This document shows positions 9,495-12,270 of a stretch of DNA of 64,000 nt, piece after piece; position 1 is the stretch's first letter, and each line of letters opens with the position of its first letter. The stretch spans positions 1 through 64,000 of the forward strand of contig NZ_QLZR01000007.1 of the NCBI RefSeq assembly GCF_003289955.1, given 5' to 3'. Under the pieces are notes generated by a model, which worked only from the letters and a program-made list of their open reading frames with translations, searched no databases and was not told the DNA's origin. Source of the DNA: Planococcus halotolerans (GTDB lineage Bacteria > Bacillota > Bacilli > Bacillales_A > Planococcaceae). Both the position numbers and the translations under genes were made by a program.

Positions 9495-12119
9495 TTAATA
9501 GCCAAACATGTCACCAATCATCCAGGAATCCCCCACTTTTTCCATGTGCATGTAGCGGCTGTCTTCCATTGTTTCAGACTTCATCCTGATATCCACGCCA
9601 CCGCGTATCCCGGAAAAACCTATATTAAAGGTATCCGCAATAAAGGAAATCCCCGTCATTTTCGAATAAGCAGTCAGATGGCCATTCAGCCACCTTTCCT
9701 TGAATTCTTCATCACTGATGGAGTCATCCATTTCGTGCACCATCAAACGCATCGTTTCAATGTCTTCTTTCTCAAGCGCCAAAAGGAATACGCCTGCTAT
9801 TTCTGCTGGTGTAGCCAACTGAATCGCATCCAAACTTACACTTTCCGTTATGTCCTTATAGTATTTCTGGACACTTGTGTCAAAGGGTTCGAAATTTTCA
9901 TCCTTGGTATAATGCTCATCTATTTGATGCTGCATCAGCCAGATTTGGTCTCTTTCACTGACGAGTGTAAAGTTATTTGTTGTTATGCGATAATCGTCGC
10001 TGGCTTCGATATTTTGGCCAAATGCCATAAGATAAACTTTTCTTCCCTGGCGGTGCAGGTTTTCACTGTAAATTTCAATGTTCCGCATGGTTTCTGCAAT
10101 TTCCGGACGCTTTCTCCATTCTTTAGTGTATTGCTCAAGTGAAGGTTTGAGTTCATCTTCAGCTGTCAGATGCCACATTGTTTCGACGTCCTCAATTTTA
10201 TTGGCGTAATGATACATTTTGATGATTTCCATCGGTTCAACTCCAGACAAGAGTTGAAGATCGTAAGTCGCTGCAAATTTCTCGTACAGGGGTTGGATAT
10301 CGCTGTAATCGTAATCCTCCACTTCAAAATTGACAGTTTCTATCTTCAAGTCCCCATTAGGCAATTTTTCGGCCAGCTCACCGTTTTTTTCGAGATCAAT
10401 TGCATAAAGTATATCCGGGTATGCCATCTGCTCATAATGTGCGGATTCCTTCCATCCGCTTTCTTCAAACTCCTCCAGAATCGGCAGCATCATGAAAGTG
10501 ACCGGATTGCTGTTGTGCTGGAGTAAACTTTCCCATGCCAATTGAAATTCCTCTTTGACTATTCCCTTTTTATCAAATATTTCGGTATGTTCGTCACCTT
10601 TAAGCAAGGTATGGAATGCATGAATCAATTGAGGCTCGACTATTCCTTGCAACACTGGATCTGCCATTGGATCGCTTAAGAATGACGACATTGTAATGAT
10701 GGATTGCGGTAAGTGTTCAATCGGCCACAGCATGCCCGTTTCATCAAAGACCGGCGTGGCCCAAAGAACATCCAGGTATTGCATGCTCATCATATCCGAA
10801 TTGAATGGATGAATCTCATAAAATTTAGTGATGTCTCTCATTATCCGGAAACGTTCTTCATTGGGATGAACCGAATATTGAAAAGTATACTCCCTCAAGG
10901 AAGAGGTCAGATTTTCAATTTCCTCAGGATAATCTTCACGGCTATGCATGAGTTTTTCAGGTGACAACTGTCCGTTCACTTCTGCCTTTGTAAGTTCATC
11001 TTTATATTTTTTCAGCAAACCATCGGCTATCGCCATCAACTGCTCTGTTTTTTCTGTATAAATGACCAGGAATTTGCTGGTTTCTGAAGATAAAAGCCTA
11101 TAATCGTCTACCGAATCAAGCATCCCTTTCGGTGTATGGATATTCAGCATCAGGACATCTACCTGCTCCTGCATCCGCTTTGGATCGTCCTGCAGCTGTT
11201 TGACGTTCTGGCGGCTGAAGGTACGCTCTTTTAAGGCATCAGCTTTTTTGACATATTCCAGCTGTTCGAATGTTTCCTCAGATAATCCGAGGCTGTCCGG
11301 AGCAGCTGCGCGAATTTCTTCATATTCCGCTTCCCATTTTTTGACCATCGCCTTGGTGACGGTCGTCGGATTCTCTTCTTCTGCCGCTGTCTGCTGCGTT
11401 TCTGCAGGCTGATCGTTGAACAGGAATGATGCGCCGATTACTGCTGACAGGAACAGACTTGCGCCTGCCAGTGTAGCTAAAGTTTTCTTATTTACAGGTG
11501 CTTTTCCTTCTTTTCTCACCTCGGCAGCCGGTTCTTCTGAGGGGGACACCTCTTCAGGCACAATATCGTTCTCTTCGGTAAATTCGACCCTGTTGTAGGA
11601 CTTCGCTAATAAATCCAGGCGCTTCTGAACATCGCCCTTCCCTTCAACAACGAGGTTTTTCTCCAGATCCCTGATTGCAGCTTCAAGTGCAGAATCAACA
11701 GAGGCTTCGAAATTGCCCATGATGGCAGAAACATCTTCCTGATTCTTGCCGTGAAACTGAAACAGAATTAGAGCCAGTTTTTCTGTCTGTGGGAGTTTTT
11801 GGATTGCTTGATGTGTTTCTTCGTCTTCTTCAAATTTAAATGAAGCCTCATCGTTTTTATTGATGGAATCAGTTTTCCCGTTCTTCAATAACCGGACGGC
11901 CGATTCGATTATTTTATTCTCCGTGTTGTGGCCTTCGATTGTTTCCAGGTTGCTGCCGATATCCTTAATTACTTCAAGCTGAAATCCACGTATTTCCTCT
12001 TTTGGTATGCCCGCCTGGTAGGCGAACCTGGCAATCAATGGCGTAAAGTTCCTGCTCCAGGCAATCAGCGACTGATTGTCACCCTCTTTTGCTTTATTCA
12101 ATAAATCATCAGTTTGCAT
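9495..12119 (-). CDS. Membrane-anchored ECF-sigma-like protein with large extracytoplasmic domain
   Basis: An 874-residue protein not recognised as a named family. Residues 1-85 resemble sigma-70 region 2 of ECF factors (LLNKAKEGDNQSL onward). Residues 100-156 resemble region 4 (AIQKLPQTEKLALILF, then a helix-turn-helix-like QEDVSAIMGNFEASVDSAL). After an acidic linker there is one transmembrane helix at 212-234 with KK on its inner side, so residues 235-874 should lie outside. The C-terminus holds two NTF2-like repeats (about 630-737 and 771-874, each with a D-x-E-T-M helix start). It could be a membrane-tethered transcription regulator or a sensor using a dead sigma fold. Single gene; the start is ATG 12119. 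Confidence 0.75.
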   Translation of the reverse strand: MQTDDLLNKAKEGDNQSLIAWSRNFTPLIARFAYQAGIPKEEIRGFQLEVIKDIGSNLETIEGHNTENKIIESAVRLLKNGKTDSINKNDEASFKFEEDEETHQAIQKLPQTEKLALILFQFHGKNQEDVSAIMGNFEASVDSALEAAIRDLEKNLVVEGKGDVQKRLDLLAKSYNRVEFTEENDIVPEEVSPSEEPAAEVRKEGKAPVNKKTLATLAGASLFLSAVIGASFLFNDQPAETQQTAAEEENPTTVTKAMVKKWEAEYEEIRAAAPDSLGLSEETFEQLEYVKKADALKERTFSRQNVKQLQDDPKRMQEQVDVLMLNIHTPKGMLDSVDDYRLLSSETSKFLVIYTEKTEQLMAIADGLLKKYKDELTKAEVNGQLSPEKLMHSREDYPEEIENLTSSLREYTFQYSVHPNEERFRIMRDITKFYEIHPFNSDMMSMQYLDVLWATPVFDETGMLWPIEHLPQSIITMSSFLSDPMADPVLQGIVEPQLIHAFHTLLKGDEHTEIFDKKGIVKEEFQLAWESLLQHNSNPVTFMMLPILEEFEESGWKESAHYEQMAYPDILYAIDLEKNGELAEKLPNGDLKIETVNFEVEDYDYSDIQPLYEKFAATYDLQLLSGVEPMEIIKMYHYANKIEDVETMWHLTAEDELKPSLEQYTKEWRKRPEIAETMRNIEIYSENLHRQGRKVYLMAFGQNIEASDDYRITTNNFTLVSERDQIWLMQHQIDEHYTKDENFEPFDTSVQKYYKDITESVSLDAIQLATPAEIAGVFLLALEKEDIETMRLMVHEMDDSISDEEFKERWLNGHLTAYSKMTGISFIADTFNIGFSGIRGGVDIRMKSETMEDSRYMHMEKVGDSWMIGDMFGY

Positions 12120-12270
12120 TCAAAGAACCCCTTTTAAAATCGAAATATTCAATCTCTTCCTTTATATGTTTATTATACGATACGAAATCAGTGAAGTTTC
12201 AAATTTATCTATTTTTTTGCAGGTTGCTCGTGTAGAATGAAAAAATCTAATTGAAATAGGAGTGAAGATA

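Follow-up and report, generated by a model that had tools for sequence, protein, structure and literature searches.

The window analyzed here comprises 64,000 nucleotides of Planococcus halotolerans (assembly GCF_003289955.1, contig NZ_QLZR01000007.1, positions 1 to 64,000). On its minus strand, an ATG-to-stop frame running from position 12119 down to 9495 encodes a protein of 874 amino acids (aa), in which a head resembling an extracytoplasmic function (ECF) sigma factor is followed by an acidic linker, a single transmembrane (TM) helix and a large outer part (Table 1). This organization had been described, with no strand given, in a previous annotation made from the letters of the window (hereafter the original prediction), and is borne out by our analysis. 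The TM helix is plain from the sequence at around residues 211-233 and appears as a helix at residues 211-231 in an AlphaFold2 model, with a predicted local distance difference test score (pLDDT) mostly below 50 there; fused relatives have a hydropathy peak near residues 190-235.

Table 1. Features of the sigma/anti-sigma fusion gene in the window
Feature	Position	Strand	Basis or remark
Whole gene: putative pseudo-sigma head, anti-sigma segment, TM helix and outer part	9495..12119	-	Present in 45/46 genus genomes
Residues 1-156, decayed ECF sigma domain (sigma2 + sigma4)	11652..12119	-	Pfam/NCBIfam, model, residue comparison
Residues 96-109, FEEDEETHQAIQKL, region 4.1 segment; F96, E98, D99 invariant 43/43, conserved in free sigmas	11793..11834	-	
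Residues 138-156, net-negative remnant of the -35 recognition helix	11652..11708	-	Window -3 vs +4 to +5 in 24 free sigmas
Residues 157-182, anti-sigma helix 1 (KRLDLLAKSYNR); second gene of relatives begins here	11574..11651	-	
Residues 183-210, acidic linker; anti-sigma helix 2 of the free protein lost here; model confidence low from 194	11490..11573	-	
Residues 211-233, TM helix, inner side KK	11421..11489	-	Sequence; low-confidence model helix; hydropathy of relatives
Residues 234-590, outer domain, mostly helical, without clear known fold	10350..11420	-	
Residues ~591-733, probable NTF2-like domain 1	9921..10349	-	Model fold matches
Residues 734-874, probable NTF2-like domain 2	9498..9920	-	Model fold matches, MecA_N; terminal module similar in other Bacilli loci
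Promoter-like TGAAAC-N16-CGTATAAT, 82 bases 5' of the ATG; sigma-W-type spacing and TATAAT box	12172..12201	-	

The survey of homologues proposed in the original prediction indicates that head and outer part are conserved as one fused gene. A match was present in 45 of the 46 genomes of the genus, and for this reason a chance or reading-frame artefact was rejected. One full-length frame was found in 43 of the 46, with products 27-83% identical to the window protein in the alignment (83% in Planomicrobium sp. Y74), and the window genome gave one match.

With respect to the head, Pfam Sigma70_r4_2 matched residues 101-151 (E 3.5e-5; 23.8 bits, slightly below the cut-off of 25.7), the generic ECF model of NCBIfam, sigma70-ECF, reached 24.1 bits at residues 79-156 against a cut-off of 42.9, Pfam gave no region-2 match to the window head, and a PHROGs search returned weak sigma matches and unnamed families only. 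In the AlphaFold2 model, which was built on 43 genus homologues (mean pLDDT 84.2, low confidence at about 194-249 around the membrane), residues 1-160 form a complete ECF sigma that matches ECF sigmas of the PDB over both domains: SigW-RsiW (5wuq chain B; Z 16.7, root-mean-square deviation [rmsd] 2.5 over 148), CnrH-CnrY (4cxf; Z 16.8, rmsd 3.2 over 153) and RpoE-NepR (5uxx; Z 16.0, rmsd 3.0 over 149). The reading of residues 1-156 as ECF sigma regions 2 and 4, with region 4 the clearer, was therefore correct as to the fold (Z 16-17 over about 150 residues), the sequence itself revealing region 4 alone, below the Pfam cut-off. Since the best matches are sigmas held by an anti-sigma, and whole sigmas of polymerase complexes were at rmsd 21-28 among the matches listed, the modelled head is closed, like the sigma under RsiW and CnrY. 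Throughout this text, the region names 2.1 to 4.2 and the roles of single residues are those we take them to be.

Forty loci of the family were fetched, hand-picked among the matches listed and not random, and 25 of them have two frames in place of, or beside, one fused frame. The first frame of the pair (about 184 aa) matches profile positions 2-160 in loci of genera g8, g12, g13, g17 and g19, and the second matches the profile from about 155-161 onwards, with a TM helix near its residue 60. In each of the 25 real pairs the two frames overlap, over 11-29 bases (89 in a single pair whose start call is long), and the frame offset is the same every time, so one small indel within the overlap could fuse the pair. 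The free sigmas are normal ECFs, with 49-55 bits for Pfam region 2 and 59-64 bits for r4_2 (4/4 tested) and 95-105 bits for TIGR02937 (3/3 tested). The second protein gave no Pfam family above the cut-off (4/4 tested) and no NCBIfam family (3/3 tested); it begins with MDDKQFExRMxLLKKSYERVP, continues with a second helix, DxDEVLxKIEEE, the TM helix and an outer part, and from this layout and its pairing with a sigma we infer that it is an anti-sigma. Residues 157-210 of the window protein correspond to its anti-sigma segment, so that sigma domain, anti-sigma domain, TM helix and outer part lie in one chain homologous to the pair. Because the window protein is a fusion of the two overlapping genes of its relatives, the anti-sigma sits inside the chain, and the original statement that no anti-sigma gene is adjacent needs correction: it is part of the same protein, while further genera of this family encode it by an overlapping gene of its own. 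As to the sorting of frames, 26 were first classified as free sigmas and two of locus L074 (a truncated sigma and a fragment of a fused head) were dropped, leaving 24; the L074 sigma is still counted in the 25 pairs, from which a false L074 pair was excluded.

Outside the family, 12 loci were opened, and six of them (L128-L132 and L136, of families f14, f33 and f44) pair a sigma scoring 223-236 bits with a membrane protein of 548-568 aa; no fused gene was seen among the 12. Since the pair is thus found at six loci in three other families of the class, the two-gene state is taken as ancestral. An anti-sigma profile scan of the class matched 59 of 398 genomes. Within the family, profile A1, made from the genus proteins, gave matches in 255 of 261 genomes at E 0.01, probably including generic ECF sigmas, and in 165 of 261 at E 1e-12; the order-level search took in the same 261 genomes. 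At most three candidates per genome were scored in the family searches and matches were listed in part, hence copy numbers are lower bounds. Fused and split states share one slot, and all 56 loci examined hold the S1-domain neighbour gene of the window.

Three genus genomes depart from the full-length frame. In G016 (L047/L150) the fused gene is frameshifted near the TM helix, by mutation or assembly error, which leaves two overlapping frames, one of 236 aa for the head and one of 670 aa for the TM helix and outer part, resembling the ancestral two-gene layout; in G028 the gene is broken; and in G022 (L149 2466-4597) the slot is empty, with the S1-domain gene and the SNF-family transporter gene adjoining, about 400 bases apart. 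In genus g17, fused copies form tandem arrays, with or without an adjoining sigma/anti-sigma pair (L073, L076, L077, L078, L079, L091, L093-L096), and some of the copies are broken (L074, L079, L098).

A maximum-likelihood (ML) tree of the anti-sigma segment, TM helix and outer part, with the head excluded, requires three changes between fused and split states, all of them forced by branches starred in the Shimodaira-Hasegawa-like approximate likelihood ratio test (SH-aLRT). Most g17 copies fall with g5, g2 and the window genus in the main fused clade; two proteins of g12 are nested within the two-gene proteins of g12, and three g17 proteins within those of g17. FastTree agrees with the nesting of the fused proteins, and a single clade of all fused proteins was rejected in the quick tree (approximately unbiased test, p-AU 1.3e-45). 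The ML tree was a quick search on 61 of the 79 FastTree rows; it left out three of the rows of L074, L079 and L098, 7 of the 20 rows from the genus and the fused rows that come from five g17 loci. Among these, L079 10252-11769, sorted as a free anti-sigma and present in the FastTree tree, is a piece of a broken tandem fused copy, and L098 5548-7182, which is within the 33 fused frames compared, is a cut-short fused copy. Because the root was not inferred, the direction of change rests on distribution and decay. As judged from gene order and trees, a sigma gene has been fused with its overlapping membrane partner gene in at least three separate groups.

The fused sigma halves diverge strongly from the free ones. 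Scores on a free-sigma profile are 313-342 bits for the 24 free sigmas themselves, 222 and 187 for the pair of g12 fusions, 49 for the window protein and 10-77 across all 43 genus heads. At the 78 positions that free sigmas conserve, retention in the genus is 17% for region 2.2, 12% for 2.3-2.4 and 24% for 4.2, but 39% for 2.1 and 56% for 4.1, the opposite of the pattern in 17 distant control ECFs (43%, 45%, 57%, 9% and 44%, respectively), which are presumed functional and of which 8 are near-copies of a SigW-like sigma and 3 are a 641-aa protein described below. The contact signature of functional ECFs in regions 2.2, 2.3-2.4 and 4.2 is largely missing from the genus heads. Trp69 is present in 24/24 free sigmas, 17/17 controls and 0/43 genus heads, and Arg165 in 24/24, 17/17 and 5%, respectively; Trp69, Lys160 and Arg162 are all lost in 43/43 genus heads, while controls keep Lys160 in 15/17 and Arg162 in 10/17. 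The recognition helix, with a net charge of +4.9 in the 24 free sigmas, +5.1 in 9 from other loci and +4.7 in the 17 controls, has -2.4 in the 43 genus heads. The least decayed fusions, those of g12 (L082 2647-5334 and L083 5105-7810), keep 64% of conserved residues in region 2.3-2.4 and 50% in 4.2, and their recognition helix has charge 0 while region 2.3-2.4 still has +3, which suggests that -35 recognition was lost first.

Substitution rates point in the same direction. The ratio of nonsynonymous substitutions (dN) in sigma to those in anti-sigma had a median of 0.42 for the two-gene state (16 comparisons, none above 0.56), 1.65 for the genus (161 comparisons, 96% of them above 1) and 1.06 for other fused proteins (19 comparisons, 0.79-3.98); dN was obtained by a simple Nei-Gojobori count, with synonymous substitutions (dS) saturated in some pairs and pairs non-independent. 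By these counts, the sigma half has turned from slower- to faster-evolving than the anti-sigma. Taken at the level of sequence, the comparisons show that most of the promoter and polymerase signature is gone from it, and we infer that the head has no sigma activity. Loss of DNA- and polymerase-contacting residues in homologues, named in the original prediction as a finding that would speak against it, is largely what the genus displays, with most of them gone in 43/43 proteins; the suggestion of a one-component sensor recruiting polymerase is not supported, and the evidence favours the third option then put forward, an inactive sigma fold serving as an interaction module.

No free cognate sigma was found with the free-sigma profile in the 46 genus genomes (best match per genome about 104-108 bits). 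One elsewhere in the window genome was rejected as a candidate, the best match there being a SigW-like sigma with an RsiW-like neighbour (L123 34-1245, contig 14; both names given by eye). Three genus genomes contain a 641-aa protein (L119 2501-4426, L120 1998-3923, L121 1354-3279) in which an ECF sigma domain with a positive recognition helix is followed by about 460 residues in which inspection by eye reveals no TM helix; it represents an extended ECF sigma of another kind.

Eight residues are invariant in 43/43 genus proteins: Q35, G37, F96, E98 and D99, at positions conserved in free sigmas too, and R167, S174 and R177, which fall in anti-sigma helix 1. The helix 1 motif, L-x-K-S-Y-x-R, is largely preserved in the 31 other fused proteins (L in 31, K in 21, S in 30, Y in 28, R in 31). 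The genus has lost anti-sigma helix 2, whose Ile occurs in 23/24 two-gene proteins versus 8/43 genus rows. According to co-evolution and structures, sigma4 is bound by the first helix of the anti-sigma, and sigma2, at the polymerase site, by its last helix (PMC7406223); the surviving residues would fit a lock between sigma4 and helix 1, with the polymerase-blocking arm gone. Averaged over 55 pairs and taken relative to gene-wide dS, dN was compared between head (0.25), anti-sigma segment (0.16), linker (0.37), TM helix (0.08) and outer part (0.12-0.15).

Upstream sequences differ between split and fused genes. The motif TG[AT]AAC-N17-CGT, counted with spacers of 15-18 allowed, precedes the pair at 22 of 24 two-gene loci (0.15 expected from shuffles of single letters); at the other two (L087, L107) the start had been called too far upstream and the motif is visible once the start is trimmed. 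It is also present at 9/9 further two-gene loci, with N17 in 7 and N16 in 2. In genus group A it was found in 18/30 genomes, always with N16 and in 10 continuing as CGTATAAT, and in group B in 0/13, all of which have TATAAT-like boxes; the N17 promoter was not found in any of these 30 and 13 genomes. Other fusions have the motif in 0/2 (g5), 2/29 (g17 and g2; one match 182 bases upstream, the other at the broken L098 copy) and 2/2 (g12, with N17). A TGAAAC-N16-CGTATATA motif precedes the SigW-like gene in the window genome and in four other genus genomes shown, hence the TGAAAC-N16-CGTATAAT of the window looks like a sigma-W-type or mixed promoter. TGAAAC-N15..17-CGTA occurs once within the window, with 0.36 occurrences expected by chance, so the weight lies in its repeated position across genomes and not in the single match. 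As far as motifs can tell, the two-gene promoter is shown to be lost or changed in the strongly decayed fusions.

Predicted alone, the outer part reached pLDDT 88.6 and a predicted template modelling score (pTM) of 0.81. Residues ~591-733 and 734-874 each consist of helices followed by a curved sheet, and match NTF2-like domains of the PDB at Z 5-8, which are low scores; the best were YchJ (Z 8.1, rmsd 4.1 over 112), PBP5 N-terminal domains (6.1-6.8) and the NTF2 domain of RsgI9 (6.3). Pfam MecA_N matched the window protein at E 0.049, and 7/43 members at E ≤1. The two NTF2-like repeats of the original prediction are thus plausible at these positions, short of proof at such scores. A PDB sequence search with the outer-part profile gave nothing to E 1 and Foldseek with the outer part nothing at E ≤0.001; for the helical part (234-590) only helical proteins with low Z such as 14-3-3 were retrieved, taken as a common arrangement. 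The last domain matches proteins of other Bacilli loci, and of six opened (L133-L135, L137-L139) four adjoin an ECF sigma gene. In the window genome, contig 1 encodes a 263-aa protein (L140 1305-3316) whose last 127 residues match the terminal module (54 bits); its gene overlaps an upstream ECF sigma gene, and a second ECF sigma gene lies downstream.

These data are probably best explained by a fused sigma/anti-sigma gene with a retired sigma half, whose product serves at the envelope as a receptor or structural protein and holds a pseudo-sigma locked in cis. Comparison with relatives shows that the ECF sigma gene was joined in one frame with the overlapping gene of its membrane partner, the putative anti-sigma, and that the sigma half afterwards lost the signature of a working sigma. 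Region 4 is most likely folded on anti-sigma helix 1 of the same chain, as the model and the surviving residues suggest, forming a permanent cytoplasmic lock or an interaction module. The product may have been kept for an envelope role of the outer part, as receptor or structural element, in line with the stronger constraint there, and promoter sequences suggest that control of its expression could have shifted away from its own sigma, to a promoter of sigma-W-like or housekeeping type. By analogy, the protein would work most like a membrane anti-sigma carrying its own dead sigma. A more speculative extension, to which we give a modest chance, is that Bacilli have at least three times turned a sigma/anti-sigma switch into a membrane receptor with an output other than its own set of promoters, an outer signal opening the cis lock and exposing the pseudo-sigma or the anti-sigma helix to another partner, in a PhyR-like manner.

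Several observations weigh against the proposal of a retired sigma locked in cis. The gene is dispensable in places, since it is absent from the intact slot in G022, frameshifted in G016 and broken in G028. Given its dN over gene-wide dS and its modelling as a complete sigma, the head is not junk and does something that its sequence does not reveal. The closed conformation of the model may reflect training on anti-sigma-bound structures; in addition, RseA and MucA complexes match region 2 alone, and RskA and RsbN complexes are at rmsd 10-13. Some contact residues of the free sigmas are family-specific, controls having Arg162 in 10/17 and mostly hydrophobic residues at positions 79 and 82 (R79, Y82). 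TATAAT-like boxes are also found at 10/24 two-gene loci and hence are not diagnostic, and because an ECF-like promoter is present in 18/30 group A genomes the gene may still belong to an ECF regulon.

An active one-component membrane sigma of the IutY kind, with proteolysis near the TM helix freeing the head for promoters of altered sequence, would share the layout of IutY, in which cleavage by Prc and RseP frees an active sigma (PMC5411451), and the head does keep its overall fold under purifying selection. The g12 fusions, with much of regions 2.3-2.4 and 4.2 retained and the N17 promoter in 2/2, speak for it; yet even these have lost the charge of the recognition helix (0 versus +4.9). In the genus this helix is net negative, Trp69, Lys160 and Arg162 are gone in 43/43 while controls keep the charge, Trp69 in 17/17 and Lys160 in 15/17, and the N17 promoter was not found. 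We therefore consider this explanation quite improbable, and reject an active membrane sigma on recognition-helix charge and lost contact residues in comparison with free and control sigmas. A decaying pseudogene with an unneeded, drifting head would account for the broken, frameshifted and missing copies in G028, G016 and G022; against it stand the full-length frame in 43/46 genomes, the eight residues invariant in 43/43 and the dN over gene-wide dS in 55 pairs (0.25 in the head, 0.12-0.15 in the outer part), on which it was rejected as very improbable.

Action in trans would be another way of using a sigma fold for protein contacts. PhyR is a precedent for a sigma-like domain capturing an anti-sigma, and by this token the head could titrate the anti-sigma of another ECF pair, or the anti-sigma helix could capture another sigma. 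The structure with NepR, 4qic, matches the head at Z 13.1, six g17 loci (L073, L075, L092, L095, L096, L097) have a sigma/anti-sigma pair beside fused paralogues, and the residues kept are the family-specific ones of regions 2.1 and 4.1 and of anti-sigma helix 1. However, contact in cis accounts for the same residues more simply, and any trans partner within the genus, where the search gave no cognate free sigma, could only be a distant one, so we regard a trans regulator as unlikely.

Sigma/anti-sigma fusions are usually taken for one-component sigmas. In the present case, promoter recognition is weakened in every one of at least three separate fused groups, g12 being caught part-way, with the charge of the -35 helix gone and most of region 2.3-2.4 remaining. 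This suggests that fusion can be a first step in retiring a sigma while the sensor stays, and warns against annotating such fusions as transcription factors. The natural series of two genes, slightly decayed fusion and strongly decayed fusion also allows the important sigma/anti-sigma contacts to be read off.

In the literature searched, which gave reviews and papers on IutY-kind fusions, no decayed-sigma fusion in this family was apparent by title or abstract opening, and no record was returned for ECF/anti-sigma in Planococcus, Sporosarcina or Lysinibacillus. The original statement that no described system has this layout needs correction, since IutY of Pseudomonas putida (ECF243) and members of ECF36, ECF48, ECF52 (SCO4117) and ECF53 are described as sigma/anti-sigma fusions that like the window protein combine a cytosolic ECF sigma domain, an anti-sigma region and a TM helix in one chain (PMC8999054, PMC5411451). 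In IutY, proteolysis releases a functional sigma, and the other fusions are expected to act likewise, whereas most of the DNA and polymerase signature is gone from the sigma half of the window protein; this protein also belongs to a Bacilli lineage and has a different outer part. By layout the protein thus is of the sigma/anti-sigma fusion kind, and by signature it falls, on sequence criteria, outside functional ECF sigmas. The nearest solved folds to residues 1-160 are SigW-RsiW and CnrH-CnrY, in anti-sigma-bound conformation, and the anti-sigma segment, being short, is reminiscent of CnrY, a class II anti-sigma with two helices, the first of which binds sigma4 (PMC7406223). Those systems consist of separate chains, while the window protein is fused and has no second anti-sigma helix. 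The sigma-like domain of PhyR resembles the window head in using a sigma fold for protein contacts and not for promoters; PhyR is a soluble protein with a receiver domain and targets NepR in trans, unlike the window protein, which is membrane-bound and carries its partner in cis, and in which no receiver domain was matched among the three Pfam families listed to E 10. The direct relative is the unnamed two-gene ECF sigma/anti-sigma pair of Bacilli (families f14, f33 and f44; g4, g8, g10-g13, g17 and g19 of the family), which occupies the same slot in the family loci checked and differs from the window gene in having two overlapping genes, an intact sigma and, in most cases, the N17 promoter.

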